49,066 nt of DNA, from positions 1,767,813 to 1,816,878 of the forward strand of contig CP070718.1 of the NCBI GenBank assembly GCA_020350565.1, written 5' to 3'. Below, piece by piece: positions 14,629-44,197 of the stretch. Below the pieces are notes generated by a model. That model was not told the origin of the DNA. It was given only the letters and a program-made list of their open reading frames with translations, and searched no databases. A program made the position numbers and the translations under genes. Source of the DNA: Phycisphaerales bacterium (GTDB taxonomy: Bacteria > Planctomycetota > Phycisphaerae > UBA1845). How positions within the stretch are numbered: the first letter of the stretch is position 1; each line of letters opens with the position of its first letter.

Positions 14629-14949
14629 TACGACACGCAAGTCATCTAGAGTTCTGATCTTAGAGTGCCGGAAGTCAGCCGCCGATCGGCGCGGGAACCG
14701 TTTGTTGGCTTCGTGCCGTTGTTGCCGACGTTGCGCCATCGCGCACCAACTCGCCCGTGTGGTCGGCGTCGTGCGACAGGTAGTACGTGGTTCGAAAGAT
14801 CCAGAGAGGGACACAGAAGTGCAGGCTTCGCACCTCGATCCGGAGGGGCTGTCCAATTGTCGGGTCTTTAATCATCCGAAGAGAAGCTCTCCGGAAATCG
14901 AAGCCCAGCCTTCGCTGTCCACATCGTGAAAACGCAGCGAGAGGGAGAG

Positions 14950-17900: not shown

Positions 17901-20900
17901 CTGGGCCAATTTCACCAACGTGAGCACCAAAAACAAATCGATGATCGGCAGGGATGAAGGCGGTGGTTCCCCCCATTGGTGGCTTGGCGCGAGCGTGAAT
18001 ACCGGTGTGGCCAAATTCAATCTGGTGGACACGAACGGCAACGGTGTTGCCGTGTCGGGCGGACCGGCAATCAACGACGGCTACTGGCACCACCTCGTGG
18101 CTGTTCGCGATGAGAGTCTGGATGAGAACCGATTGTACGTCGACGGCGATCTGGTGGACTGGGCGACACACGACTACACCGCAGGCTTTGAGGCATCGAC
18201 GACGTTGGACATCGCCTATATGGCCTACAACGGCAACCCCGATTACTTCTACGATGGCCTCCTTGACGAAATCGCGCTGTACCAGCGGGCGCTGGCGGAA
18301 CCGGAGATCAAGCAGCATTACGAAGACGGATTGCTCGGTTACGCCGTGTGCGGGGAACCGGAGGCTCCGAGTATCACGTCGACACCGGTCCTCGACGCAT
18401 CCGCAGGCCACCTTTACACCTACGACGTGGATGCGATCGGGTATCCGGCGCCCACGTACGCGCTGCTGACCTTCCCCGACGGCATGACGATCAACACGAC
18501 GACGGGGCTGATCGAGTGGACGCCCACGGTCGACCAGATCGGGCCGAACTCGGTCTCCGTCCAGGCCAGCAATTCTGAGGGCGACGACACGCAGAACTTC
18601 ACCGTAACCGTGTCCGAGGGCCCGATCTGCCCGGACGACATAATCTCATACTGGCCGCTCGATGAGACCTCGGGCCAAGCGTTCGAAGACTTCTACGGTG
18701 ACAACGATGCTGCTTGCTCCTCCGGACACTGTCCGACGCCGGACGTGGGCGGCCTGATCAACGGCTGCCAGGACTTCAACGGCACGGATGAGTACCTCAC
18801 GGCGCCGGATGACCCATCCTTCGATTGGAGCAGCACCGACAGCTTCACCATCGAGGTCTGGGGCAATTTCACCAACGTGAGCGGCAAGAACAAAGTGATG
18901 GTCGGCAGGGATGAAGGCGGTGGGTTCCCCCATTGGTGGCTTGGCGCGAGCGTGAATACCGGTGTGGCCAAATTCAATCTGGTGGACACGAACGGCAACG
19001 GCGTCGCCGTGTTGGGCGGACCGGCAATCAACGACGGCTACTGGCACCACCTCGTGGCTGTTCGCGACGAGAGCCTGGATGAAAACCGCCTGTATGTTGA
19101 CGGCGATCTGGTGGACTGGGCGACACACGATTACACCGCGGGCTTTGAGGCATCCACGACGTTGGACATCGCCTATATGGCTTACAACGGCACCCCGGAT
19201 TACTTCTACGATGGCCTCCTTGACGAAATCGCGCTGTACCAGCGTGCGCTGACGGAACCGGAAATCGAACAGCATTACGACGACGGATTGCTTGGCTACG
19301 CCGTTTGCAGGGAGCCGGAGGCTCCGAACATCACGTCGACACCGGTCCTCGACGCATCCGTAGGCCAGCTTTACAGCTACGACGTCGATGCTACGGGCCA
19401 TCCCGCGCCCACCTACACGTTGATCGAGAATCCCGACGGAATGACGATCAATGCGGCGACGGGTGTGATTGAGTGGACGCCTGCAGCGGAGGACGTCGGC
19501 GGCAATCCGGTCACCGTGAAGGCCCTCAATTCGGCCGGCGAAGACCAGCAGTTCTTCACGATTCAAGTGTCCCCGGGGGCCGTGTGTCCCGACGGCATGA
19601 CTTCGTATTGGAGGCTGAATGAGGTAAGCAGCGGCTCCTACGCGGACTCTGTCGATGGGAACCATGGAATCTGCGGCGACGCGGCTTGCCCCACACCGAC
19701 ACCTAGCGGGCAAGTGGATGCGGCACAACTGTTCAGCGTTGCGAGTAACACCGGCATCGATATCCCTCCAGACACTTCGTTTGACTGGGGAGCTGGCGAC
19801 AGCTTCTCTGTCGAGTATTGGATGATCACGGATCCATCAAGCACTTGCTCAGGAAATCAGGTTCTCGTCGGACGGGACGACGGCGCAACGCAGCTTCACT
19901 GGTGGACCGGCTGTTACGACGGTGGGGATCCTTCGTTCATCATTCGCAGTACGACCGGAGAGTCGGGGGATGATGGCGTCCTTCGAGGTATTTCCGACCT
20001 CACCGACGGATTCTGGCATCATATCGTGGCGGTCAAGGAGGGTGATGATCTACTGCTCTATGTCGACGGCGACGTCGAGGATTCCAGCAGCTTCGCGTTT
20101 ACGGCCGGATTCGACTCGGCCACCGCGGCAATCAACATCGGCTGGCTGAATCTCAGCGCCGGCTACAACTTCGACGGAACGATCGACGAGGTGGCCATCT
20201 ACAACCGGGCGCTGAAAGAGTACGAGATCGAGTATCACTATGCCAACGGGCAGATCGGCGAAGCCTACTGCGAGGACTATCTGGTCGCTCCCACGATTAT
20301 CTCCACGGCACCCGTCGAGGCCACGGCCGGAGAACTGTACACCTACGACGTCGACGCCGTGGGTAACCCCGTTCCAACGTATGCCTTGGACATCTATCCC
20401 ACGGGTATGACCATCAACCCATCCACCGGCTTGATCGAGTGGACACCTGACGTTGGGCAAGGGGGGTTGAACAGCGTCACCGTGCGGGCGACGAACTCCG
20501 AAGGTGACGACACTGAGGTTTTTGACATTGACGTGACGGTCCCATCTCCCTGCCCGGCCAACATGACCCACTACTGGAAGCTCGATGACGCCGCCGCACC
20601 CTATGAAGACTTCTACGGGGATAATGACGCCACGTGCAGCTTTTGCCCAACGCCCGCGACGGGGATCGTTGACGGTGCTCAGCAGTTCGACGGCCTCGAT
20701 GACGAGGTGGACGTCGCCGATGACAACACCTTTGACTGGGGTGCGTCCGACACCTTCTCCGTCGAATTCTGGATGAACAGCAACAGCGATTGCGGCGGCA
20801 ACGAGGTCATTGTCGGACGAGATGACGCCTCAAGTGACCTGCACTGGTGGGTTGGCTGCGCCGACGCTGGTGACGAAGCGATGTTTGTTCTGATCGATCG

Positions 20901-22407
20901 TGATGACGGCACCGGCGGAAGCGGCAGTTGGCCGTCCAGCGGCATGGACATAACCGACGGCTTGTGGCACCACATCGTTGCCGTCAGGGATGCGACCCAT
21001 GTCCGGGTTTACGTGGACGGCGAGCACAAGGAGGGCTTCCCAAAATCGTATACCGCCGGTTTCGACGGTGTCGCGCCGATCAACCTCGGCTATCTCAATC
21101 TCAGCGGCCACTATCGATATGAAGGCCTCCTTGACCAGGTCGCGCTGTATGATCGCGCACTGGATTCAACCGAGATTGAGGATCACTACAACAATGGCCT
21201 GGGCAAAGACTACTGCGAGGAGTGTTCGCCCCCGGTGATCTCGACCCAGCCTCAGAGCCAGACCGTGTGTGAAGGCGATGATGCGCCGTTCACCATATCG
21301 GCGACCGGCACCGGCACTTTGCACTATGCCTGGTCCATGGATACGACGCCGGTCGGCACTGACAGTCCGGACCTCACGCTGGTGGGCGTGCAGATGAGCG
21401 ACGACGGCGCGCAGATCACCTGCGACGTGACCGACGACTGTGATACGGTCACAAGCGACGCGGCGACGCTTAACGTAAACCCGGTTCCGACGGCTACCGC
21501 CTCGAACGACGGGCCGATCTGCGAGGGTAACGATGTCCAACTGACCGGCGGTCCGGACAGCATGGACACCTACTCGTGGACCGGGCCGGGCGCCTACACC
21601 TCGGATCAGCAGAGTCCACTGGTACCGGCGGCCGAGGCAGGTGACTACTGCCTGACGGTGACCCTGGCCGGCTGCCCGTCGCAGGAAGTCTGCACGACGG
21701 TCGTCGTGAATCCGATCCCGACGGCAACCGCCTCGAACGACGGGCCGATCTGCGAGGGTAACGATGTCCAATTGACCGGCGGTCCGGATGGCATGGACAA
21801 TTACTCATGGACCGGGCCTGGCGCCTACACCTCGGATCAGCAGAGCCCGCTGGTGTGGGCCGCCGAGGCGGGCGACTACTGTCTGACAGTGACCCTGGCC
21901 GGTTGCACGTCACAACCTGCTTGTACCACGGTCGTCGTAAACCCCGGACAACCCGCGATCGATCAACAGCCCAATGACGTGGCAGTCTGCGAGGGCCAGG
22001 ACGGCATCTGCACGATCGTAGCGCATGGCACGGGGACACTGCATTACTCCTGGTTGCTGGACAGCCAACCGGTCGGCACGGACAGCGACACGCTCGTGCT
22101 GCCGGACCTGCAGTTGGAGGACGACGGTTCCGAGATCAGGTGTATCGTCAGCGACGACTGTGGCCTGGTAATGAGCGACTCGGCATGGATCACCGTAGAC
22201 CCCATGCCTCTGGGCGACATCAGCGGCGACTGCGATGTAGATCTGGACGATTACGGCTTGTTTGCAGCATGCATGGGAGGCCCGGACGAGACCACGCCAC
22301 CGGGCGGTTGCTCGACAGAGCATTTCGAACGAGCCGACATGGACGATGACAGCGACGTTGACCTGGCGGACTTCGCTCTGTTCGAGACTTCGTATCCCAC
22401 TGGTTAG
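14950..22407 (+). CDS. Giant secreted LamG / SGNH-hydrolase protein with dockerin-like tail
   Basis: A 2485-residue exported protein. After a long signal region (hydrophobic core SVILGCVIAFASAHGIASG, ~37-52) come a LamG domain (56-275) and an SGNH/GDSL hydrolase (~290-505). The hydrolase has block I GDSIT (~294), GTNALD (~382) and the DNLHP Asp-His pair (~472), so it is probably an active esterase of the carbohydrate-esterase type. Five Ig-like (He_PIG) plus LamG pairs follow to ~2093, then an Ig-like domain, two VCxG-type Ig repeats (231-bp period, from 21487), another Ig-like domain and a paired EF-hand, dockerin-like tail (2420-2485; DVDLDDYGLF and DVDLADFALF). LamG modules bind sugars or proteins, so the likely job is polysaccharide binding and deacylation outside the cell. 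The start at 14950 sits behind AGGGAG; Met at 14956 is an alternative with better spacing. Units 3 and 4 are almost identical in DNA. Confidence 0.9.
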   Translation: MNMHPESAQAPQCAPIHSWPLGHPHQGCRELTRLPSVILGCVIAFASAHGIASGECPTTTVAYWHLDETSSGTYVDSANGNDGTCAGVCPTPAASGKINGAQEFDGDTTGIDVAADPSFDWGKDDSFTIEFWMKRDGPIGSGGVPDNEVIIGRDDSATDLHWWFGVANTTGAAHFQIGDVTGDSVVVEGPAVDDGRWHHVVGVRDGDNDLNILYVDGEEADSVSKDYAAGFGSATAALNIGWLDLSTYYHYEGVLDEVAVHNRVLSPQEIRSHYYLVRDYCDVCATPVRIMPLGDSITVGNASGVVPDQEEYWVSYRKNLWESLGGAGYVVDFVGGEVHGDYYDPPFDSQHEGHGGWRDDEIASNVVSFLTANPADVVLLHIGTNALDTSPADVEDILINIDFVSEDITVILARIINRMDHECPDPSTTTTFNDNVEDMALLRIANGDKIIIVDMECGAGMDYREQPVGDMNDNLHPYATGYAKMADLWFQTLDTFLPLCGPHAPTITSDPITEAFVGQLYSYDVEATGSPEPTYSLVTYPTGMTINATTGLIEWTPSAGQLGPNPVTVQAENTEGTDTQSFTVGVVYPPTCPEDMTHYWKLDEDPGPPYEDYYADNDATCTNCPAPTTGIVDGAQQFDGLADEVDVADDDTFDWGASDEFSIEYWMNSTSDCGGNEVIVGRDDSSSSLHWWTGCADSGDQAVFVLVDTAGGNGGSSNWPYSGIDITDGFWHHIVAVKDSTHIRLYVDGQEKDSEPKSYADGFDGPVPVNIGYLNLNGHYRYEGAVDEVALYNRALDISEIQDHYNSGTGKSYCQDMPSPPTITSTPVTTAYVGQLYTYDVDAIGYPAPTYALLTYPVGMTINETTGLIEWTPTVDQIGPNSVSVQASNSEGDDTQDFTVTVSEGPICPDDIISYWPLDETSGQTFDDFYGDNDAACSSGHCPTPDVGGLINGCQDFNGADEYLTVPDDPSFDWSSTDSFTIEVWANFTNVSTKNKSMIGRDEGGGSPHWWLGASVNTGVAKFNLVDTNGNGVAVSGGPAINDGYWHHLVAVRDESLDENRLYVDGDLVDWATHDYTAGFEASTTLDIAYMAYNGNPDYFYDGLLDEIALYQRALAEPEIKQHYEDGLLGYAVCGEPEAPSITSTPVLDASAGHLYTYDVDAIGYPAPTYALLTFPDGMTINTTTGLIEWTPTVDQIGPNSVSVQASNSEGDDTQNFTVTVSEGPICPDDIISYWPLDETSGQAFEDFYGDNDAACSSGHCPTPDVGGLINGCQDFNGTDEYLTAPDDPSFDWSSTDSFTIEVWGNFTNVSGKNKVMVGRDEGGGFPHWWLGASVNTGVAKFNLVDTNGNGVAVLGGPAINDGYWHHLVAVRDESLDENRLYVDGDLVDWATHDYTAGFEASTTLDIAYMAYNGTPDYFYDGLLDEIALYQRALTEPEIEQHYDDGLLGYAVCREPEAPNITSTPVLDASVGQLYSYDVDATGHPAPTYTLIENPDGMTINAATGVIEWTPAAEDVGGNPVTVKALNSAGEDQQFFTIQVSPGAVCPDGMTSYWRLNEVSSGSYADSVDGNHGICGDAACPTPTPSGQVDAAQLFSVASNTGIDIPPDTSFDWGAGDSFSVEYWMITDPSSTCSGNQVLVGRDDGATQLHWWTGCYDGGDPSFIIRSTTGESGDDGVLRGISDLTDGFWHHIVAVKEGDDLLLYVDGDVEDSSSFAFTAGFDSATAAINIGWLNLSAGYNFDGTIDEVAIYNRALKEYEIEYHYANGQIGEAYCEDYLVAPTIISTAPVEATAGELYTYDVDAVGNPVPTYALDIYPTGMTINPSTGLIEWTPDVGQGGLNSVTVRATNSEGDDTEVFDIDVTVPSPCPANMTHYWKLDDAAAPYEDFYGDNDATCSFCPTPATGIVDGAQQFDGLDDEVDVADDNTFDWGASDTFSVEFWMNSNSDCGGNEVIVGRDDASSDLHWWVGCADAGDEAMFVLIDRDDGTGGSGSWPSSGMDITDGLWHHIVAVRDATHVRVYVDGEHKEGFPKSYTAGFDGVAPINLGYLNLSGHYRYEGLLDQVALYDRALDSTEIEDHYNNGLGKDYCEECSPPVISTQPQSQTVCEGDDAPFTISATGTGTLHYAWSMDTTPVGTDSPDLTLVGVQMSDDGAQITCDVTDDCDTVTSDAATLNVNPVPTATASNDGPICEGNDVQLTGGPDSMDTYSWTGPGAYTSDQQSPLVPAAEAGDYCLTVTLAGCPSQEVCTTVVVNPIPTATASNDGPICEGNDVQLTGGPDGMDNYSWTGPGAYTSDQQSPLVWAAEAGDYCLTVTLAGCTSQPACTTVVVNPGQPAIDQQPNDVAVCEGQDGICTIVAHGTGTLHYSWLLDSQPVGTDSDTLVLPDLQLEDDGSEIRCIVSDDCGLVMSDSAWITVDPMPLGDISGDCDVDLDDYGLFAACMGGPDETTPPGGCSTEHFERADMDDDSDVDLADFALFETSYPTG
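17464..19377 (+). repeat. Two near-identical 957-bp in-frame tandem units inside the LamG gene
   Basis: The block TACGACGTGGATGCGATCGG recurs at 17464 and 18421, 957 bp apart (319 codons). Almost the whole unit between is the same, with scattered mostly silent changes. The corresponding point of the next unit is at 19378, again 957 bp on, but that unit is clearly diverged. The unit before begins at 16516 (948 bp) and the last spacing is 966 bp. Each unit encodes one Ig-like plus one LamG domain. Confidence 0.9.
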
Positions 22408-30639: not shown

Positions 30640-31239
30640 ATGGCCGAGTCTTCCGAACAAAGCGTTTCCCATCAGCTCGCAGCCGCCAGGCAGGGGGATC
30701 AACAGGCCATCGGCGCCCTTTTTCGCCTGCTCTACGACGACTTGCGGATGATGGCGGCGCGCTACATGCAGCAGGAACGCGCGGCTCACACCTTGCAGGC
30801 GACGGCCCTGGTCCACGAGGCCTATCTGCGGCTTGTCGATCGACAAGTGGCAAATTGGCAGGACCGGGCCCACTTTCTGGCGGTCGCCGCGCAGGCCATC
30901 CGGCGGGTACTGGTGGATCACGCCAGGGGCCGAGGCCGCAAGAAACGAGGCGGTGGGCACAAGGAAATCACCCTATCGACCTCCATGGCAATTGCGGGTG
31001 GGCAGAATGTCGACCTGCTCGCCCTGGACGAAGCCCTGAACCATCTGAGTGAAACCGATCCGCTTGAAGCCCACATCGTGGAAATGCGGTTCTTCGCGGA
31101 GCTGACGGTGGAAGAGATTGCCGAGGTCCTCGGCATCTCTGATCGCAGCGTCCGACGGCACTGGAACTACGCTAAGACCTGGCTGTACCGCGAACTGAGA
31201 AAAGGCGAGACGAGGGCTGAGCGTGGAGAGCGGCCATGA
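30640..31239 (+). CDS. ECF-type sigma factor coupled to a kinase
   Basis: A 199-residue sigma factor of the planctomycete-rich ECF group with the TLQATALVHEAYLRL motif (51-65) in region 2. Region 4 runs from about 130 to 188, with LTVEEIAEVLGISDRSVRRHW (155-175) as the helix-turn-helix. The ATG at 30640 is chosen because family similarity begins directly after it. The frame stays open upstream but that part is antisense to the divergent exoprotein's 5' end. The ribosome binding site is weak, and a GTG at 30622 is an alternative. Its stop overlaps the start of the kinase gene by 4 bp (ATGA), so the two are translationally coupled and very likely work together. Divergent to the cassette exoprotein gene with 178 bp between start codons; regulation of that gene by this sigma factor is an attractive guess. 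Confidence 0.93.
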   Translation: MAESSEQSVSHQLAAARQGDQQAIGALFRLLYDDLRMMAARYMQQERAAHTLQATALVHEAYLRLVDRQVANWQDRAHFLAVAAQAIRRVLVDHARGRGRKKRGGGHKEITLSTSMAIAGGQNVDLLALDEALNHLSETDPLEAHIVEMRFFAELTVEEIAEVLGISDRSVRRHWNYAKTWLYRELRKGETRAERGERP

Positions 31240-34031
31240 CAACTGAGCGATCCGCCCGCTTGCGAGAACTGTTCAACCTTGCGCTCGATCGCCCCCCCGA
31301 ACAGCGCGGTGTATTTCTCAGTGAGGCCTGCTCGGGAGAGCCGTCGCTACGCTCCGATTTGCAGTCCTGGCTTGCCGCATTCGATGAAGCGAACAGCTTT
31401 CTCGAATCACCTGCTCTCGGGGGGCTGTCGGCCCTCACGGATGAGTCGGCCGCGACGATGATCGGGAGAAAAGTGGGCCAGTATCGCATCGAACGCCTGA
31501 TAGCCTCTGGGGGTATGGGTTGCGTATACGCGGCGGAGCAAGAGCAGCCCCGGCGGACGGTAGCCTTAAAGGTCCTTCGACCCGGGATTGCGTCTCCGGC
31601 CACCCTGCGTCGCTTTACACATGAAGCTGAAATCCTCGGCCGGCTCCGGCATCCGAATATCGCACAGATCTACGAAGCCGGCACTTACAACGCCGCAGGC
31701 GCCCGCGCGCCATACTTCGTTATGGAGCATATCCCCGACGCACGTTCGATTGTCCAGTACGCAAACCAAGAGGGGCTTTCCGCGCGGCAACGCCTTCGCC
31801 TGATTGCTGAGGTTTGCAGCGCCGTGCAGCATGCCCACCAGCGCGGCGTGATTCACCGCGACTTGAAGCCGGGCAACATCCTGGTCGATGCGTCCGGGCA
31901 GCCGAAAGTAGTGGATTTTGGTGTAGCGCGGGCCACCGATGCCGACGTGCAAGCGACCACGCTGCAAACGGACGTGGGTCAGCTCATTGGGACGCTTCCC
32001 TATATGAGTCCCGAACAGGTCAAGGGGGATCCCCATGAGTTAGATACGCGTAGCGACGTCTACTCGCTGGGCGTGGTTTGTTACGAGTTGCTGGCCGGTC
32101 AGCTACCTTACGATGTCAAGGATACGCCGATCACGGAGGCCATCCGCGTTATTGCCGAGGCTGCCGTCCTGCCGCTGGGTTCGCGTGACCGGACTTCGCG
32201 GGGAGACGTTGAGACCATCGTCGGCCGGGCGCTCGAAAAAGATAAGAGCCGGCGATATCAATCGGCCGCCGAGCTTGCCGCCGATATCCGCCGCTACCTC
32301 AACGGCGAGCCGATCACCGCTCACCCACCAAGCTCGCTGTACCAGTTGCGCAAGTTTGCTGGACGAAACAAGGCATTGGTTACCGCAGCGGCCGCAGTGT
32401 TCGTGGTGCTCGTGGCCGGCATCGTCGGCGTGAGCATTGGCTTGAACCGGGCCGTCGCAGCGGAAGAACTGGCCAGGCAACGGAGTGAGGAATCGGACAC
32501 CGTCACGGGTTTCCTTGCGGACATGCTTACGTTGGTGAATCCGGAGGAGATTGGCCGAGATGTCCTGGTTCAGGATGTACTCGATCAGGCCTCTGGAACG
32601 ATTGGCGAGGAGCTGGCGGACAAGCCACGGATTGAGGCTCGCTTACGCCACGCGATCGGCAGCGCCTATATGGGCCTCGGCAAATACGCACCGGCTTCCG
32701 AGCACCTCGAGCGCGCGTCGGGAATCGGCCGACGCGAGTTGGGCGAAGAGCATCCTACAACACTGACCTACTTGAGTGCTTTGCCTGTCCTTTACTATAA
32801 ACAGGGGCGTTACGACAAGGCGGAAGCGTCATGCTTGGACACTTTCAAGATTCAGCAGCGCGTCTTGGGGAAGGAGCATCCGGACACGTTGGACATGATG
32901 AACATGCTCGCCGTCCTGCATAATCAAAACGGCCGACTCGACGAGGCCGAGTCACTCCACCTTCGGATTCTCGAGGTTCGTCGCCGCAGCCTGGGTGAGG
33001 AGCACCCGGACACGCTGAACTCCTTGCATAATCTTGCCGCCGCATACGATAGCCAGGGGCGCTACGACAAAGCCGTCCCGCTCCTGACCCAGGTCGTGGA
33101 GACCAGGCGCCGAATTCTCGGTCCCCAGCACCCTGAGACCCTTTTCTCACTGAATAACCTTGCCTTCGCGTATGACGCCCTGCAACGCTACGACAAGGCC
33201 GAGCCACTCTACTTGGACGTGTTGCAAGCGCGTCGCCGGATCCTGGGCCCCGAGCATCCGGACACACTGGAATGCATGAACAATCTTGCCACCCTCTACG
33301 AAAGCCAGGGCCGCGCCAGCGAGGCAGAGGAGCTGCACCGGCAGGCCCTGGAAATTCAGCGGCGAGTGCTGGGACCGGAACATCCGGCGACCCTGACCTC
33401 CCAAAACAATCTTGCTGTTCTGTACTTCGGCCAGGGCGACTACGACCGTGCCAAGGCGTTGTTTGTGCAGACGTTGGAGACTCGCCGCCGCGTTCTCGGA
33501 CCGGAGCATCCGAGCACGCTGACCTCTCTGAACAATCTTGCCTTCACGTACAAGCAACAGCGTAGATATGAGGAAGCTGAAGCCTCGTACGTTCAGGTAG
33601 TAGAGTTGCATCGCCGGGTGTTCGGCCCGGCTCATCCGGAAACGCTGGACGCCGTGCGCGAACTGGCTCTATTGCGCCTGGCGCGAGGCTACCCGGACCA
33701 AGCGGAGCCGTTGATAGCCGAGGCCCTCGCGGTCGCAAGGACATCAGAGGCGGTAGAACAGCAAAAGGCACAGTTGTTGCACGGCTACGGCGAGTGCTTA
33801 ACGCAGTTGGAACGATACGACGACGCAGAAGCGGCGTTGCTCGAATCGATCCAAATCCTGACCGCTTCCTTCGGCGAAAAGCACGGGCGGACGGTCGCCG
33901 TCATCGATTCGCTCGTCGGACTCTACGAAGCCTGGGGTAAACTGGAGAAGGCCGCCGAATGGCGCGCCAGACTGCCGACGACCCAGCCAACCGCCGACAT
34001 CACGGAGAGGCCGTCCGCGGAAAACCGTTGA
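31236..34031 (+). CDS. Membrane Ser/Thr kinase with kinesin-light-chain-type TPR repeats
   Basis: A 931-residue Hanks-type kinase. Residues 1-75 are a helical leader. The kinase domain (~82-355) has the glycine loop ASGGMG (90-95, first Gly replaced by Ala), Lys112, HRDLKPGN (207-214), DFG (227-229) and SPEQ (258-261); it should be active. A transmembrane helix covers about 380-403. From ~470 to 850 there are roughly nine TPRs of the 42-residue kinesin-light-chain type, each carrying LGxEHPxTLxSxNNLAxxY, which bind peptides or proteins. The ATG overlaps the sigma factor stop. The gene probably senses an envelope signal through the TPR region and acts on the coupled sigma factor or its regulon; that link is inference from coupling. 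It ends 100 bp from the convergent radical SAM gene, with no obvious terminator. Confidence 0.95.
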   Translation: MTTERSARLRELFNLALDRPPEQRGVFLSEACSGEPSLRSDLQSWLAAFDEANSFLESPALGGLSALTDESAATMIGRKVGQYRIERLIASGGMGCVYAAEQEQPRRTVALKVLRPGIASPATLRRFTHEAEILGRLRHPNIAQIYEAGTYNAAGARAPYFVMEHIPDARSIVQYANQEGLSARQRLRLIAEVCSAVQHAHQRGVIHRDLKPGNILVDASGQPKVVDFGVARATDADVQATTLQTDVGQLIGTLPYMSPEQVKGDPHELDTRSDVYSLGVVCYELLAGQLPYDVKDTPITEAIRVIAEAAVLPLGSRDRTSRGDVETIVGRALEKDKSRRYQSAAELAADIRRYLNGEPITAHPPSSLYQLRKFAGRNKALVTAAAAVFVVLVAGIVGVSIGLNRAVAAEELARQRSEESDTVTGFLADMLTLVNPEEIGRDVLVQDVLDQASGTIGEELADKPRIEARLRHAIGSAYMGLGKYAPASEHLERASGIGRRELGEEHPTTLTYLSALPVLYYKQGRYDKAEASCLDTFKIQQRVLGKEHPDTLDMMNMLAVLHNQNGRLDEAESLHLRILEVRRRSLGEEHPDTLNSLHNLAAAYDSQGRYDKAVPLLTQVVETRRRILGPQHPETLFSLNNLAFAYDALQRYDKAEPLYLDVLQARRRILGPEHPDTLECMNNLATLYESQGRASEAEELHRQALEIQRRVLGPEHPATLTSQNNLAVLYFGQGDYDRAKALFVQTLETRRRVLGPEHPSTLTSLNNLAFTYKQQRRYEEAEASYVQVVELHRRVFGPAHPETLDAVRELALLRLARGYPDQAEPLIAEALAVARTSEAVEQQKAQLLHGYGECLTQLERYDDAEAALLESIQILTASFGEKHGRTVAVIDSLVGLYEAWGKLEKAAEWRARLPTTQPTADITERPSAENR

Positions 34032-36317: not shown

Positions 36318-39300
36318 TTACTGGAACATGCCCATCATCATCTGGAACGCGGCGAAATCGCCGAGATCGACGTCGGCGTCCGCGTCGGAGTCGAACACCT
36401 CACATTCCGTCGTCGGCGGGCCGGCATCGGGCCCCGTCATGCATTCGGGGAAGTAGACGAAGTCGGCCAGGTCCACCACGCCATTTTCATCGTAATCGCA
36501 CGGTAGCTCGACCTCCGGCAGGCCCCAGATCTCTATCGCATCGATGGCCGCCTCCGTGATCGAGTTGTTCGGGTTGTCCGTCGCGCTGAAGCGAACCTTC
36601 ATCTGTGCACCCGGCGTGATGTAGTCGACCATCTCGATCGTCGGCTCCACCCAGCCCACCGTATGCGGCACGCTCTCGATCAGCACCCACGAGGCGCCGT
36701 TGTCATTGGAAATCTCGACGTCCAGGCGGTCTATGTCGCCGTCATCGCAGGTGAACCAGCGGGCATAGCGCAGCTTGGGATCGATCACGCCGGCCACGTT
36801 CACCGTGGGAGAGATCAGCCGTGTGGGGCCGCCGTCCACGTCCGCACCGATCGCCCGCTCGGTCAGATAGCAGCGCCCCGAACCGTCGTAGTCGCTGGAG
36901 GGGGCCCCCGGGCTGCCGGCGATCGGAACGAGCCGCTCCCAGGCGCCGGTTTCCAGTTCGATGTTCTCTATGATCCAGCCCTTGTCCGTCTCGAAGTCGT
37001 CTTCGAAGAAGGTCATCGGACCACCGACCGTGACCGAGACCGTGGCAACGTTCGAGCCGGCCGTCGCATCCCGTGCGGAATACTCGAACTCGGCCACCAG
37101 GTTCTGATAGATCGGCGGCGAGTACCGGACCACTGCCCCGCCATCAACGAGCTCATACGGCACCTCGGTGATCGCCCCGGCGCCCGGATCATCCAGTGTG
37201 CCCTCCAAAGGCAGGCTCTCAATGAAGTAGGTCAGGGGATCGCCGTTGGGATCGATGGCGTTCAGGGTAACGTCCACCGGAGTCGAGATGGGCGTCGCGG
37301 CCGTTACGGGATAAGCGACCGGTGCCCACGCGGGACCACCGACCGTTACCGTCACCGTCGCGATGTTCGAGCCGGCCGTAGCGTCTGCGGCGGAATACGT
37401 GAACTGCGCCGTCAGGGTCTCCTCGCCCACCGGCGGAGCGTACTGCACGACGTTCCCGCCGCCCACCAACTCATAGGGAACTTCGGTGATCGCCCCGGCG
37501 CCCGGATCGTTCAACGTCCCGGAAGCAGGCAGGCTTTCAATGAAGTACGTCAGCGGGTCTCCATTGGGATCGGTCGCGTTCAGCACCACGTCGACCGGCG
37601 TGCTGGCCGGCGTCGAGGCGTTGACGTTGAACGCCTGCGGATCCCACGCCGGACCGCCCACGGTGATCGACACGATGGCTGTATTTGAATCGCCGCCTTC
37701 CGGCGGAACGCCGCCATCGTTGGCCACGTACTGGAAGTTGTCCCCGCCGCTGTAGGTCGACTCCGGCTGATAACTCAGCTCGTTGCCGTTGTCGGCCAGC
37801 TCATGCGGGATCGAGGTGATCTGCCCGAACCCGGGCTCATACAGGTCACCATGCGTGGGCAGGGTGGTCACGATGTAAGTCAGTGCGGCCGGCGGATCCG
37901 GCAAGCCGTCATCCGTGGCTTGCAGCGTGATCGCGATGGAGTCCGCGCCCACCGGACCGGTAACCTCGACGGGCATGGCCGTCGGCGGCTTCGGACCACA
38001 GGCGCCCATCTCCGATAGGTCGGTCGGGTAGAAGTCCGGGCTCAAGCCCTCGCCCTCGGACAGACCCGCGATACCGTCGTTCACCGCAACCTCCAGATAA
38101 CTGATCGTGATGGTCCCATCGAAGAACAGCTCGACCTGGAAGGTGCTGCTGTTGGACGTGCCGTACTCGGGCACGTTCTCGTAGGTCACTACCGCCCGAT
38201 CGGACAACTGCTTCCAGCTCACGGCCCCACCCGCATCGTCGACGCTGAAATCATCAAACAGCGGCGAGATCCGCGGCATATCGAAGTGATCTGCCAGCGA
38301 CTCGGTGTAATCCGAGTCCCCGGAGCCGAAGGTGATGTACCCGTTGTCACAGACGTAGAAGCTGGAGTAGCTGACGCCATAGAGCGATACGGTCTGCCCA
38401 TCGCCCAGCGTCACCTGCTGGTAGCTGTCCTCCGTGATGTACAGCGCCGTCCCGCCGGCCGGGTCGGTGGGCAGACTCTCGATCGGCTCCGTACAACCAT
38501 CGTAGAAGTCGTACGTGCCACTAAGCTCGAAGGTCAGGGTCAGGTAATCCAGATCGTTACTGCCACTGAACTCCTCGGTAAAGAAGTCGGGCACTTCCGG
38601 CGTCGTGAAGGTGTAGCAACTGCCACCATTGTCGTCGCTGGCGGTGTTGCCCGCTTCGTCTTCGGCCTCCACCGCATAGAAGTAGGTTGTGTTGTCGTCA
38701 AGCCCGGCCAGCTCGACCAGCGGCTCGGTGCTGTAGCCGCTGCCGGCGGTCGTCTCCGTCAGGGAATCGCAGGACGTGCCGTAGTGCACCGTGCCTCTTG
38801 TGGGCTCGTCGGTGTCAAAGGTGATCGTAGCGCTGCGCGCCTCGATGTTAATCGCCTCGACGTTGGAGATCATCGGCGCGGTGCAGTCTACCGGTGCAGT
38901 CGCGGTAACCACCACGTCCGTGCCACCCTCGCCGTCGTCGGCATCGATGTACGTCACCGTAATGGTGTCGCCCTCCGCCACCAGCAACACGCCGGCGCTG
39001 TCCGTCCCGCTCAGCGTGATGAAGCCTTCAAACCTGGCGGAGTCCGGATCGGTCTCCGTAAGGGTAACCTGCTCAACGCCGGTCTCGGAATCCGAGTCGA
39101 TATCGACCGTCACATCATCGACCACCGTGTCGTCCGTGTTCAGGCCACAGTCGTTGACCAGGATTGTCGCGGTGCCTTCGCACGCATACTTCATACGATC
39201 CAATGTGACCGTGCCGGCATCGGTACAGGTTCCCTTGAACGCGACTGCCGGGTCGCCAAACAGGTTCAACTCGTAGTAGCACCACCTCATGCAGTCTTCG

Positions 39301-41003
39301 TTGATGCGGTAGAGGTTATCCTCCTTTGAGTCCTGGTTGGCCCGCCCCATCTCGGGCATATCCTCGTCCGGATTGAACACGGCGTCCCAAAACTCACGGT
39401 TAAACCGTTGAGAAGGGCCGTCGGTGGAGTACCACTCGCCATAGCCGTAACGCGCATTCATGACCACTCCGAAAGCGGCGTGATCCGTCTTGATATTCGC
39501 CGTTTCGGCCCAGCACTCCGTACCGTCGAAGTGGCCGGCGTCGCAAGTCTGCGAGTAGACGAAGCAAAGATCCTCGTTGATCAGGTCGTTGAGAACGTCG
39601 CTGTTGTACAGCTTCATGGCGTAGTCCGGGCTGCCGTGGCCCAGATGGTTGACGATATGCTGACCGGCGTTGATCCGCGCCTCGATTTCGGTTGGCGGCC
39701 AGTCGTTGCCCGGCCAGTCACGATCGTACAACGTGTCGATCGTGAAGTCGTCGGAGGGAAAACCGATGGTCGTGTATCCATGGGCATCCGAGCCGTCGAT
39801 CAACTCGTCCAGATAATTGCCACCGTATTCCGCTACACCGCCGAATCCGAGGTATTCGCCCACCAATATGACCTTCTCCGGCTGGGAGTGCTGACCGGTC
39901 ACGTACCAGATGGTCTTGTCCACGAAGCGCCCGACCTCGGTGGTGTTGTCGGCCGCGGCACGCCCCACGAACACCTCGGCTATCAGATCGACATCGCCGC
40001 CACCCTCGCCGTCGGTGGGCTCACCCCAATAGCCGTCGCCGTCGTAGTTCCAAGTGCCGTCGAGACAGCCGAAAAAAAGATCACCGGGCATGTCGTTGAT
40101 GCCGTCGACGTAGAGATCCTTCGCCGGGATGGCGTCATCGTCGGCACCGATGATAACATACTGGATCCCGTCATTGAGATATCGCTCGATGATATAGTCG
40201 CGCACATCGACGGGATCACTGCTGCCGACGTCGGTGGTCGTTGTATGGATTTCGGTCGGCATGCCGTAACTGTCATGATGGTTCTTGAGCGGCACAAAGG
40301 CCCCGGCGAGCGATTCGGTAGTGAGAATCATCAGTTCGAAAGCTTCTCTGTCTCGTTCTCCCCCCCTTGGGTACGTATCGGCAACCCCGGGGTTATCCAC
40401 CCGGGCACGGACCTCCACTTCGTCCTCTTGGAAGCCTCGAAAGAGAGGGGAAAGCCTGCCTGTGTCAATCGTGTCAACCACAACCGTCAGGCGAGGATAG
40501 TAGTAAAGCTCGCCCGAAGTCGGAACGTATTGAACCGGCTGCAATTTCAGGGTCAGAGTTGCATAACCACGAAAATGATGCACGCCGATGTTCTCGAACC
40601 GAGTCCCCGGGAAAGGCTGGTCCGAGGAGTAGATGGCGCTGTCGGGGACCGGTGGACTGGCGGCCCCCGGGCCGGACGACAGCGGCACCGGACGTGCAAG
40701 CGGCTCGATCAGGTAACCGTCGCCGAGGGCGACCTGCTCCCCAGCCACAATCTCGATGCGCGAGACTTCGGCGCCCATGGGAAGCAGGAGCCGCGCACCG
40801 CTCGCAGGCAGGGCTGGCTGCCCAGCCTTCCCGCCGTTCGTGCAACCGGGAATGGTCACTCTGTCGTAGATCTGCCCCCCCAGGGAGACCTTTGAGAGCT
40901 TCGGACGGTCAAATGTGTAGTCTACAGTCAGTTGTTCCGCCGTCGCCGAAACGGCCCAACTCCCCAACGTGATGACGCAGATGAGCAAGGTGTGAAGCTT
41001 CAT
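36318..41003 (-). CDS. Secreted gingipain-like cysteine protease (peptidase family C25) with dockerin-like tail
   Basis: A 1561-residue exported caspase-fold protease. The ATG at 41003 opens a signal peptide (HTLLICVITLGSWAVSATAE) behind AGGGTGG. Residues ~24-220 resemble the C25 propeptide. The catalytic domain (~220-600) has His ~455 in NHLGHGSPD and Cys ~486 in SQTCDAGHF, 31 residues apart, like the His/Cys dyad of gingipain R. It continues with the AGTVTLDR domain (~590-705), FN3 (~705-800), nidogen-like (~815-998), a cadherin-like PPEGGDSN domain (~1000-1110), two ATDPNGDPLTYFIESLP repeats (~1115-1325), a MAM-like domain (~1330-1500) and a paired EF-hand tail (DLADFVYF, DLGDFAAF). C25 includes secreted proteases and the PorU sortase of the type IX system; no other type IX genes are visible. 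A role in degrading or processing extracellular proteins is likely; specificity (Arg or Lys) cannot be read. Confidence 0.92.
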   Translation of the reverse strand: MKLHTLLICVITLGSWAVSATAEQLTVDYTFDRPKLSKVSLGGQIYDRVTIPGCTNGGKAGQPALPASGARLLLPMGAEVSRIEIVAGEQVALGDGYLIEPLARPVPLSSGPGAASPPVPDSAIYSSDQPFPGTRFENIGVHHFRGYATLTLKLQPVQYVPTSGELYYYPRLTVVVDTIDTGRLSPLFRGFQEDEVEVRARVDNPGVADTYPRGGERDREAFELMILTTESLAGAFVPLKNHHDSYGMPTEIHTTTTDVGSSDPVDVRDYIIERYLNDGIQYVIIGADDDAIPAKDLYVDGINDMPGDLFFGCLDGTWNYDGDGYWGEPTDGEGGGDVDLIAEVFVGRAAADNTTEVGRFVDKTIWYVTGQHSQPEKVILVGEYLGFGGVAEYGGNYLDELIDGSDAHGYTTIGFPSDDFTIDTLYDRDWPGNDWPPTEIEARINAGQHIVNHLGHGSPDYAMKLYNSDVLNDLINEDLCFVYSQTCDAGHFDGTECWAETANIKTDHAAFGVVMNARYGYGEWYSTDGPSQRFNREFWDAVFNPDEDMPEMGRANQDSKEDNLYRINEDCMRWCYYELNLFGDPAVAFKGTCTDAGTVTLDRMKYACEGTATILVNDCGLNTDDTVVDDVTVDIDSDSETGVEQVTLTETDPDSARFEGFITLSGTDSAGVLLVAEGDTITVTYIDADDGEGGTDVVVTATAPVDCTAPMISNVEAINIEARSATITFDTDEPTRGTVHYGTSCDSLTETTAGSGYSTEPLVELAGLDDNTTYFYAVEAEDEAGNTASDDNGGSCYTFTTPEVPDFFTEEFSGSNDLDYLTLTFELSGTYDFYDGCTEPIESLPTDPAGGTALYITEDSYQQVTLGDGQTVSLYGVSYSSFYVCDNGYITFGSGDSDYTESLADHFDMPRISPLFDDFSVDDAGGAVSWKQLSDRAVVTYENVPEYGTSNSSTFQVELFFDGTITISYLEVAVNDGIAGLSEGEGLSPDFYPTDLSEMGACGPKPPTAMPVEVTGPVGADSIAITLQATDDGLPDPPAALTYIVTTLPTHGDLYEPGFGQITSIPHELADNGNELSYQPESTYSGGDNFQYVANDGGVPPEGGDSNTAIVSITVGGPAWDPQAFNVNASTPASTPVDVVLNATDPNGDPLTYFIESLPASGTLNDPGAGAITEVPYELVGGGNVVQYAPPVGEETLTAQFTYSAADATAGSNIATVTVTVGGPAWAPVAYPVTAATPISTPVDVTLNAIDPNGDPLTYFIESLPLEGTLDDPGAGAITEVPYELVDGGAVVRYSPPIYQNLVAEFEYSARDATAGSNVATVSVTVGGPMTFFEDDFETDKGWIIENIELETGAWERLVPIAGSPGAPSSDYDGSGRCYLTERAIGADVDGGPTRLISPTVNVAGVIDPKLRYARWFTCDDGDIDRLDVEISNDNGASWVLIESVPHTVGWVEPTIEMVDYITPGAQMKVRFSATDNPNNSITEAAIDAIEIWGLPEVELPCDYDENGVVDLADFVYFPECMTGPDAGPPTTECEVFDSDADADVDLGDFAAFQMMMGMFQ

Positions 41004-41497
41004 CGTACCACCCTTTTTTCTAATCGACATGTCGTATTCACAGAACCTCGAGCTTTCATCCTACCAGAACAAGCGGCTCGACTCCAACAAGAATGGCACA
41101 TCCCCCCGCGAATTCTGCTCGTATGCTCGCCCCATCACATCGCCCCAGCTGGACACACGTTGCTACCACGCCTGCTTGTGCCTTGCTGCGCAGTCGCTGC
41201 CCGCTGCTTCATGCCGACGACCTGATCCCGAGGGCGCACAGTCCGTGCCTCATGCTCCAAGCGACTTCTTCATCTGAAGCGACACTTACCCTTTTTGTCA
41301 GATTCTGGCCAACCATCCTGACCAAAGGAACTGCTGGAATCAACTGAGTACGGCGGTTGCCGGTGTCAGCCAGAGTTGATCGCCAGGTTGGGCGATTCTG
41401 AGCAGATGTGGGGCCAGAGATGTCTGAAGGCTTTGGAGGTCTCTGTCCTGCGATCTTCCTGCGAACCGGCAGCCGCATGTGCCCGTTGGGACAAGGT
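41004..41497. other. 494-bp gap without recognisable gene
   Basis: This lies between the 5' end of the C25 gene and the 3' end of the c-di-GMP protein gene, both on the minus strand. No frame looks coding on either strand. A partial dyad (TCAGATTCTGG and CCATCCTGACC, ~41298-41324) is visible but imperfect. The C25 promoter should be here; no clear boxes were identified. Confidence 0.4.
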
Positions 41498-44197
41498 CTA
41501 CTCAAAGCCCGGCATGGCCAGCTCTACGTATTCCGTGGGGGATACGCAACCAAGCTTGCCACTTCCGGAGGCCTCGTCAGAGAGTTCCCTGCTGCAACGC
41601 ATGAACTGCTCGGCCTTTCGGGTAAAGGCATCTACCACCACCGGGTCGAACTGGCTACCCGTGCCTTGGACAATGATTTCACAGGCCTCCTCATGCGGCA
41701 CGGCATGCTTGTACACTCGTTCCGTTGTCAGAGCGTCGTAGACGTCGGCGACAGCCGCTATGCGTGCCTCGATCGGGATCTCCTCACCCTTCAGCCCCCG
41801 TGGGTAGCCCTCACCGTTGTACCACTCATGATGACAGTGAGCGATGATCTCAGCCATCTGGAGGAAGCCGATCGGGGCACCTTTTTCCATAACCGAACGA
41901 ATGGTGGCCGCACCGATTGACGCGTGACGCTCCATGACCTCCCTCTCCTTGGCTGTCAGCTTCCCAGGCTTGAGGAGTATGCGGTCCGGAATAGCGATTT
42001 TGCCGATGTCGTGAAGCGGCACCGCATGCCGGAGGTCGTGGATAAAGCGGTCGGTGATCGCGGCGCTGAATTCGGGCCTTTCCCTCAGGCCCTCCGCGAG
42101 CATCGTGCAGTATTCAGTGACGCGCTCCAGGTGTTTGCCCGTACCATCGTCCCGATACTCCGCGAGGGTGGCCAAGGCGATCACCACCGCGTCACGCGCT
42201 GCGTTCGACGCCTCACGTTTCTGATGGCTTTCGATGGCACCTGCGGAAAGATTGCACAGCAGATCGATGCACTCCAGATCGAATGCGGTAAAAACACGCG
42301 ATGCTGACCGCCCCGTGACGTTGAGCACACCGATCTGTTTGCGATCGGCGGACAGGACCGCCGACACAAGAGGTACCCGGCGGAAGACGTCCGCTCCCAG
42401 CAGCTCGCCGTGCTCCAGGAGCTGAGCCTTGGTGTTGACGACAAGTTTTTCGCGGTAAGGCATCCAGGAACCGTCGTCGGAGAGAACCAGCGGCAAGCGA
42501 ACTTGCGCCGCTTCCTCCTCGTCAATCCCAATCGAACGAGCAACGGTCAGGACTTTTCGGTCTTCCGAGGGCAGCAGAATCGCCACTTGTCGACAGCGGG
42601 TCAGCTCGGCGGCCGCCAGGACGATCTTCTCCAAAGCGACTTGCAGATTGTCCGCGGTGATGAGCGAGCTGGCCAAGTCCGCGAGAAAGCCCATCACCCG
42701 GGCCTTTTCCTCATCCGCTTCTTCGGACATCTGGGCATCAGCCCCGGAGGCAACGGCAGGGCTTTGCCTGCATGGGCGCAGCAAGGCACCTAATGCGGTT
42801 GCCTCTGCGTCGGCCCATACCACCGTATCGTCCTGAAGGGATCTTTTTGACGCTGCCATTGGGGGCGAACCCGCGCCGATGGCTATGACCGGGATGCTTC
42901 TCGTTTCGCTTGACAGGTCGCCACCTTTCAGGCAGGCCTCACCGAGCACGTCATCCCGGCGTTGAACCGTTACAATCAGATCAGGTGGATCCCGGAAAAC
43001 ACGATCTCGCGCCGATGTCGTATCGGCTGCGCCGCTTACTTCGTACCCCTGGAGTTTCAACGCCTGCATTCGAGCGGCCCGCGTTTCGTCATTCTCGTCG
43101 ATGATCAGCAGCTTGGCAGGCACGCGGCTTCCGTCGCTCCCTGGCGGGCCCGGTTGGCTCTTGCTGCGTTCTGTGAGGCCTCCCTCAGCGGCCCGACTGT
43201 CCGAGTACGTAGTGCACGAAGCCAGAGAGACACGATTCCGACCGGCTCGTTTGGAGTGGTACAGAGCCTCGTCCGCGGCCCGCAACAAGTCCTCGGGCGA
43301 CTCCACCTCTGCTCGACGCTCCGCTACACCAAGGCTGACCGTCACCCCGAAGGAGTGCCCTCCATATTCGATGCACGCAGACTCTACCGCGCTCCGCCAG
43401 CGCTCCGCCGCTCGGGCTGCCTGGAGCTCACTGGCACCGGGACAGATGACCAGGAACTCCTCACCGCCCAACCGAGCCACCGTCTCCCCAACGCGGACGG
43501 ACCGTTGCAGCGCGGCAGCAATAGTCTGCAGGGCTTTGTCTCCCGCGTCATGGCCCCAGAGATCGTTGACCTTTTTGAAATGATCGATGTCCATCATGAC
43601 CGCGGAAAGTGCCTTGTCGTGACGGCAGGCCAACGCCCAGTGCTCGTCCAGACGCTCCAACGCCTCGCGACGGTTCATCAGACCCGTCAACTCGTCCGTC
43701 GTGGCAAGCTGGTGCAGTTTCTCGTTGGCCTCGGCAAGTTTGTCCGTTGTGATGGCCATCTCGGCGTTGACTCGGTGCAGCTCGCGATTTCGCTTGTCGA
43801 GATCACCCTTCAAACCGATGATTCTTCCCGCCGCCTGAAGGCGAGCGAGCAGTTCCCGCCCTTCAATGGGCTTGGCGGCAAAATCGTCAACGCCGGCCTG
43901 AAATGCTGCCGTGATCAGCTCCGCACTCGCATGAGCCGTGACCATGATGATGTAAATGAAGCCGCAATAGCGATTGGAACGGATGGCCCTACAAAGGTCG
44001 CCCCCGTTCATCTTGGGCATGTCCCAGCCGGTAATAACGATCTGGGGACCTGTGTCCAGAACGATCTGCAACGCATCGGCCCCGTTGCGGGCGGTCAAGA
44101 CGCCGTGCCCCGCAGATTTCAATACACGGCTCATGAATTCGAGGGCGGCGGGATCGTCGTCCACCACCAGTACCCGTAACGTATCGTGATCCAACAT
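41498..44197 (-). CDS. Dual c-di-GMP protein: receiver-GGDEF-receiver-GAF-HD-GYP
   Basis: An 899-residue cytoplasmic protein that could both make and break cyclic di-GMP. Domains: receiver (~7-120), GGDEF cyclase (~165-325) with an intact GGEEF active site (244-248), a degenerate receiver (~360-475), GAF (~500-655) and HD-GYP phosphodiesterase (~665-870) with HDIGK (729-733) and HHEWYNGEGYP (789-799), both complete. In the first receiver the phospho-acceptor Asp is replaced by Gly57 (TGWDMPKMNG where D-W-x-M-P is usual), while the acidic pocket DDD (13-15), Thr87 and Lys109 remain. The second receiver also has no acceptor Asp at the expected place. The cyclase inhibitory RxxD is RVGE (235-238). 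So input is likely not classic phosphorylation, and output may be set by the GAF ligand. Ribosome binding site is weak; the start fits the receiver fold. Likely controls attachment or motility. Confidence 0.93.
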   Translation of the reverse strand: MLDHDTLRVLVVDDDPAALEFMSRVLKSAGHGVLTARNGADALQIVLDTGPQIVITGWDMPKMNGGDLCRAIRSNRYCGFIYIIMVTAHASAELITAAFQAGVDDFAAKPIEGRELLARLQAAGRIIGLKGDLDKRNRELHRVNAEMAITTDKLAEANEKLHQLATTDELTGLMNRREALERLDEHWALACRHDKALSAVMMDIDHFKKVNDLWGHDAGDKALQTIAAALQRSVRVGETVARLGGEEFLVICPGASELQAARAAERWRSAVESACIEYGGHSFGVTVSLGVAERRAEVESPEDLLRAADEALYHSKRAGRNRVSLASCTTYSDSRAAEGGLTERSKSQPGPPGSDGSRVPAKLLIIDENDETRAARMQALKLQGYEVSGAADTTSARDRVFRDPPDLIVTVQRRDDVLGEACLKGGDLSSETRSIPVIAIGAGSPPMAASKRSLQDDTVVWADAEATALGALLRPCRQSPAVASGADAQMSEEADEEKARVMGFLADLASSLITADNLQVALEKIVLAAAELTRCRQVAILLPSEDRKVLTVARSIGIDEEEAAQVRLPLVLSDDGSWMPYREKLVVNTKAQLLEHGELLGADVFRRVPLVSAVLSADRKQIGVLNVTGRSASRVFTAFDLECIDLLCNLSAGAIESHQKREASNAARDAVVIALATLAEYRDDGTGKHLERVTEYCTMLAEGLRERPEFSAAITDRFIHDLRHAVPLHDIGKIAIPDRILLKPGKLTAKEREVMERHASIGAATIRSVMEKGAPIGFLQMAEIIAHCHHEWYNGEGYPRGLKGEEIPIEARIAAVADVYDALTTERVYKHAVPHEEACEIIVQGTGSQFDPVVVDAFTRKAEQFMRCSRELSDEASGSGKLGCVSPTEYVELAMPGFE

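Follow-up and report, generated by a model that had tools for sequence, protein, structure and literature searches.

The protein REC1-GGDEF-REC2-GAF-HD-GYP, which combines a domain type that makes c-di-GMP (GGDEF) with one that breaks it (HD-GYP), carries an N-terminal receiver domain, REC1, in which the phospho-acceptor aspartate is replaced by glycine (Gly57). It is encoded in the window, the whole stretch of 49,066 nucleotides that was analysed. To judge from the sequences compared, REC1 of the window is the cleanest case of acceptor loss in its family. The interpretation we lean towards is that Gly57 reflects a lineage-specific loss of the acceptor, which uncoupled REC1 from phosphorelays, and that the domain has been kept as a dimerisation and linker module.

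Receiver, linker and enzyme domains of the window protein

The coordinates of the gene and its parts are collected in the table; the translated open reading frame contains IVITGWDMPKMNG.

Table. Features of the gene for the REC1-GGDEF-REC2-GAF-HD-GYP protein (window positions)
Feature	Position	Strand	Basis
REC1-GGDEF-REC2-GAF-HD-GYP protein, 899 aa	41498..44197	minus	ORF list and Pfam domains
REC1, residues 9-120, receiver lacking the acceptor Asp	43838..44173	minus	Pfam PF00072, 87.9 bits (genome search)
Gly57 codon GGC, phospho-acceptor column	44027..44029	minus	sequence and alignment
REC1 acidic pair Asp13-Asp14, kept	44156..44161	minus	alignment
REC1 Thr87, kept	43937..43939	minus	alignment
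REC1 Lys109, kept	43871..43873	minus	alignment
REC1-to-GGDEF long helix, residues 113-166	43700..43861	minus	model secondary structure, linker lengths
GGDEF domain, residues 165-322, GGEEF at 244	43232..43705	minus	Pfam
REC2, about residues 360-485, decayed receiver	42743..43120	minus	alignment, genome search, models, fold search
REC2 Val411 at acceptor column	codon 42965-42967	minus	alignment
GAF domain, residues about 517-656	42230..42649	minus	Pfam GAF_3/GAF; modelled
HD-GYP domain, residues 678-854	41636..42166	minus	Pfam HD_5/HD

In an alignment with 54 relatives, Gly57 falls exactly into the acceptor column, which is occupied by Asp in 41 of the 48 readable REC1 domains, and its codon GGC is a single base apart from the Asp codon GAC. 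An earlier note on this DNA had described the glycine, its codon and the context TGWDMPKMNG in the same way, and sequence and alignment bear this out; the peptide (residues 56-65), however, lies at window positions 44003-44032, 5 nt away from the 44008-44037 given there. Also as described earlier, the acidic pocket (Asp13/Asp14), Thr87 and Lys109 have been retained, and the same is true of Pro61 (D+4), Gly65 (D+8), Phe106 (K-3), the T+1 Ala and the Y-T coupling pair. Conserved columns were defined as those with one residue in at least 85% of the 41 Asp-bearing rows; the window's REC1 departs from just one of these 23 columns, namely the acceptor, and the other non-Asp REC1 domains have 2 (L016), 5 (L015), 7 (L144 and L119), 9 (L120) and 10 (L030) mismatches. 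With the acceptor column masked, the window's REC1 scores 141.6 bits in a leave-one-out model, thereby exceeding 7 of the 41 Asp-bearing rows. Both this score and that of L016 lie inside the range of the Asp-bearing rows (124.4-169.3 bits), and the other five non-Asp REC1 domains score below all 41. Relative to the other domains, REC1 of the window has drifted no faster than that of its sister L125 (identity to the 46 other rows, window vs L125: REC1 0.375 vs 0.387, GGDEF 0.444 vs 0.456, HD-GYP 0.568 vs 0.589). An AlphaFold2 model of the full-length protein, built from 50 of the 55 family rows, gives REC1 a pLDDT of about 97 and the full (beta-alpha)5 pattern; the placement of the domains in this model is unreliable (pTM 0.47).

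The receivers of the same genome were read at the acceptor column with a model built from the Asp-bearing REC1 domains of the family. Asp was found in 29 of the 30 best-scoring of 41 PF00072 matches, the sole exception being REC1 of the window. The 11 weaker matches, one of which is the window's own REC2, are mixed at this column (Asp, Glu, Asn, Met, Gly, gaps and one place that was not recovered).

REC2 is a real but weak receiver, whose decay goes well beyond the loss of the Asp. The earlier note had stated that the second receiver lacks the Asp as well, which holds, as Val411 occupies the acceptor column; the description is nevertheless incomplete, since neither model gives the second half of the domain a confident fold. 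REC2 reaches 21.3 bits against PF00072 (cut-off 30.2), and its acceptor-masked score of 43.2 bits, compared with a median of 169.1, is above only 1 of the 42 Asp-bearing REC2 rows. In the full-length model, it is confident only as far as the third strand, and residues 411-490 have block means of 32-56, except for one block at 75. The second half is weak too in a stand-alone model built from 50 sequences; a fold search with the REC2 model returned receivers as the top matches (best E 7.5e-5).

Both enzyme domains possess their catalytic motifs. The GG(D/E)EF cyclase motif is present as GGEEF; at the RxxD inhibitory site, 20 rows, including the window and L125, have RxxE, and 30 have RxxD. In the HD-GYP phosphodiesterase, the HD and GYP motifs and the metal-ligand columns are all found, and His689, His729, Asp730, His758, His789, His790 and Asp818, which we take to be the metal ligands, are kept in 55 of 55 rows. 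The GAF domain is less clear in Pfam, where both GAF scores are below threshold (GAF_3 with 26.1 bits, just under the cut-off of 27). The proposal of the earlier note that the protein would need another input seems fair for an enzyme with both catalytic motifs and two receivers that lack the acceptor.

REC1 is joined to GGDEF by a linker that forms a single helix in the model. Of the 48 rows compared, 32 have a spacing of 52 between Lys109 and Asp168, 14 have 59, and single rows have 45 and 31; the window has 59, the same as its nearest relatives. The spacings 45, 52 and 59, which account for 47 of the 48 rows, differ by sevens, as would be expected of a coiled coil in which the heptad register matters. 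The DgcR paper describes the linkers of REC-GGDEF proteins likewise, as coiled coils with a heptad register (PMC8041772).

Acceptor states in the family and in the window's lineage

The family set comprises reading frames with GGDEF and HD-GYP matches together; 58 rows were obtained and 55 were kept, the distant L008 and L106 and L130, which is the same gene as L121, being dropped. L022, whose frame is broken between GGDEF and GAF, L124 and L133, which have no GGDEF match, and L034 lie outside this set. All 60 nearest genomes gave some match, mostly to single domains. At an E-value of 1e-125, family matches were found in 20 of the 114 genomes of the order, and the own genome was the sole match in a sample of 392 genomes of the phylum, where scoring covered the two top candidates of each genome.

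Seven of the 48 readable REC1 domains lack the Asp: Gly is found in the window and L015, Asn in L016 and Ala in L030, L119, L120 and L144. This count omits L023, L035, L123, L139 and L145 (5'-cut or masked) as well as L021 and L166 (without REC1). In the latter two, no REC1 is recognisable before GGDEF, and the region appears hydrophobic. For REC2, where L125 and L166 are omitted, 42 of the 53 readable domains have Asp at the acceptor and 11 do not. On a tree built solely from GGDEF, GAF and HD-GYP columns, and thus without receiver columns, the acceptor changed at least five times in REC1 and at least nine times in REC2; these counts alone do not separate loss from gain, but loss is the natural reading because most rows carry Asp. 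Both acceptors are lost in 3 of 47 rows, with REC1 lost in 7 and REC2 in 10, and these rows offer too few independent pairs to judge whether the two losses are linked. L030, L119 and L120, which belong to one genus, group together with support and each carry Ala at the REC1 acceptor, and the family thus contains an old non-Asp receiver that has been kept, outside the window's clade. Among the REC-GGDEF relatives and the split L022, Asp is found at the acceptor in 21 of 21 rows, two of which are non-independent (L155 is the L038 protein, and L164 overlaps L138, a member of the family set).

The closest relative of the window protein is L125 (592-2877, G063:C66), which shares 58% identity over the tree columns, that is, the non-receiver domains (SH-aLRT 97), followed by L010 (SH-aLRT 96); the three proteins form a supported clade (SH-aLRT 96-97). 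REC1 of L125 has the Asp (TDWNMPEMDG), REC2 is absent, and GGDEF joins GAF via a short linker. In L010, the acceptor is Asp in REC1 and Arg in REC2. As both relatives carry Asp in REC1, Gly57 is probably specific to the window's lineage. A glycine, or another non-Asp residue, conserved throughout the clade, which the earlier note had named as the supporting observation to look for, is thereby ruled out. The simplest history of the clade would be an ancestral decay of REC2, which was later removed in L125, with the Asp of REC1 being lost solely in the window's lineage. Because of the long branches (0.49 and 0.36 changes per column), a "recent" loss is recent only in relative terms. No closer relatives were found among 51 genomes of the family, 114 of the order, 397 drawn from the class and 392 drawn from the phylum; the class and phylum searches scored the best two candidates per genome, and weaker members may be missed there. 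A search of genome contigs retrieved mainly REC-GGDEF proteins from other phyla.

The residue at K+2 was also compared. Ala, Ile, Leu or Val is found here in 6 of 7 non-Asp and 15 of 41 Asp-bearing REC1 rows (Fisher p 0.034, a test that ignores kinship, with three of the six non-Asp rows being one clade). The window has Ile, L125 and L010 have Phe, and some Asp-bearing relatives also have Ile; the pattern might be meaningful, but is suggestive only. According to Bourret et al. (2025, PMC12632262), these four residues drive CheY toward active conformations and occur more often in pseudo-receivers.

Possible explanations for the loss of the acceptor

If Gly57 indeed uncoupled REC1 from phosphorelays, the domain would have lost the ability to accept phosphate at its normal site, and its folding and dimerisation would persist. 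REC1 would still hold the coiled-coil stalk of GGDEF, and the cyclase would therefore be expected to work at a fixed, phosphate-independent level. The Ile at K+2 would favour an active-like conformation, provided that the CheY result carries over. One step further, the remaining control could lie in GAF-linked signalling to HD-GYP, in c-di-GMP itself or in the expression level. Against a settled uncoupling stands the observation that Gly57 was seen once, in one genome, which does not imply fixation. Moreover, the near-perfect REC1 may fit a very recent, perhaps unselected, change equally well as a functional uncoupled receiver. It is somewhat doubtful, though conceivable, that the glycine is such a recent change, inactivating or neutral and perhaps restricted to the strain, and that REC1 is beginning to decay like REC2 with no settled new role. 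Every pocket residue of REC1 but one remains, REC2 is decayed or deleted in the window's clade, and most of the other REC1 domains without Asp (L015, L120, L119, L144 and L030) no longer match 5 to 10 of the conserved columns, all of which is consistent with the onset of decay; however, the reading frame is open, the other enzyme domains are inside the family range, and REC1 has diverged no faster than REC1 of the sister. A broader scenario, which we regard as rather doubtful, is that this order-restricted family is repeatedly leaving two-component phosphorelays in steps from an intact receiver via loss of the acceptor only and decay of the pocket to removal of the domain, with the stalk and both enzyme domains being kept. 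The window protein would then represent the first step for REC1 and a late one for REC2, and REC1 would be a fixed-on dimer module.

Two further explanations would leave phosphorylation, or the Asp itself, in place. Gly57 has Thr56 (D-1) and Asp59 (D+2) close by on either side; with the metal and phosphate ligands retained, one of these neighbours could take the phosphate and REC1 could still be a phospho-switch. In CheY D57N, Ser56 is reportedly phosphorylated. Nevertheless, Asp-bearing relatives often have Thr at D-1 as well, which is therefore no special adaptation, and D+2 is Asn and Arg in the two nearest relatives, Asp59 being new in the window's lineage. To our knowledge, an Asp at D+2 has no acceptor role, and we know of no case in which a neighbouring residue is phosphorylated with Gly at the acceptor. 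A substitute acceptor is improbable. A one-base error in sequencing or assembly is very improbable. A single-base change from GAC to GGC would suffice, and the genome, a single contig, has a completeness rating of 67%; however, none of 39 homologous genome stretches and none of 41 receiver matches contain internal stops, and several ORFs of 900-2500 aa are intact in the window; the sequence is therefore not riddled with errors. Furthermore, acceptor loss is common in the family (7 of 48), and a real change is therefore likelier than an error.

Relation to known receivers, histidine kinases and gene neighbourhood

REC1 of the window is recognised by PF00072 and carries Gly instead of Asp at the acceptor, and to judge from these properties it joins an already known class, the aspartate-less receivers on GGDEF proteins. 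In Maule et al. (2015, PMC4395418), Gly makes up 11% of the replacements in such receivers, which are enriched on GGDEF proteins, and the second acidic residue is acidic in just 29% of them, whereas the pair is complete in the window's REC1. REC1 likewise resembles the pseudo-receivers as described by Bourret et al. (PMC12632262), having lost one of five conserved residues, but it is more receiver-like than the average pseudo-receiver in keeping the D+4 Pro, the D+8 Gly, the T+1 Ala and the Y-T pair. It is uncommon that REC1 has otherwise changed so little, and that such events are so frequent in the family.

PleD (1w25, 2v0n; receiver, pseudo-receiver, GGDEF) ranks among the top PDB matches by both sequence and fold. 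It is a c-di-GMP synthase with two receivers, one of them a pseudo-receiver (PMC12632262). The first receiver of PleD is phosphorylated, whereas the first receiver of the window protein lacks the acceptor Asp and neither of its receivers can be phosphorylated at the usual site; the order of PleD is REC-REC-GGDEF, whereas REC2 of the window protein follows GGDEF and precedes GAF-HD-GYP. In DgcR (6zxb, 6zxm) and WspR (3bre), REC is joined to GGDEF by a coiled coil with heptad steps, and the window protein with its spacing of 59 has a linker of this type. DgcR is described as a constitutive dimer that is switched by a register shift (PMC8041772), and for WspR a phosphorylation-independent regulation has been proposed. 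Both have phosphorylated receivers and are devoid of REC2, GAF and HD-GYP, whereas the window protein has all three domains. The literature searched contained no paper joining receiver domain, HD-GYP, GAF domain and planctomycetes and, in the accessible text, no description of the architecture REC1-GGDEF-REC2-GAF-HD-GYP. How bacterial pseudo-receivers are switched on and off is called a mystery in Bourret et al. (PMC12632262). REC1 of the window offers a clean natural contrast for this question, as essentially one conserved position differs from working relatives; since the sister keeps the Asp, exchanges of this single residue can be studied side by side in enzymes that are alike in other respects. 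In addition, the label REC on a c-di-GMP enzyme need not imply control by a kinase.

HATPase_c is found at 24 places in the genome, the closest of which is about 245 kb away from the gene, and Pfam scans of 20 window ORFs, this protein included, revealed no histidine kinase. The flanks of the family gene were searched by BLAST in 14 relatives, using 20 sequences from the own genome, one of which (L214) is a wrong frame. A kinase is located near the family gene in at least 3 of the 14 relatives, several flanks ending at contig ends, and none was seen in the 11 others. A HisKA-HATPase gene was found at L234, the locus of the L010 gene, 479 bp from that gene on the opposite strand, and at L243 and L245, where the kinase gene is directly upstream on the same strand; all three relatives carry Asp in REC1. 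Many response regulators work without an adjacent kinase. As kinase-free neighbourhoods are thus common, also in 11 of the 14 relatives, the distance to the nearest kinase is weak support for an uncoupling of REC1. L243:6023-9595 and L245:6487-10062 are longer members of about 1190 aa, which are encoded directly behind a hybrid histidine kinase gene, and the L243 protein has an additional N-terminal HDOD domain.

No neighbour of the window gene was matched in the flanks of the 14 relatives, where only antisense frames inside the gene were hit, and a scan for promoters and terminators gave nothing above the shuffled expectation. The genome (G000) is a single contig of 3.8 Mb with intact frames; it is rated only 67% complete, and the contig may represent just part of the genome. 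At 815-3268 and 31236-34031, the window encodes two TPR-containing Ser/Thr protein kinases, the second about 7.5 kb from the gene. Very long surface-type proteins are encoded at 14926-22407, with six laminin-G-like stretches, and at 36318-41030, the latter being a C25 peptidase with Ig-like repeats.
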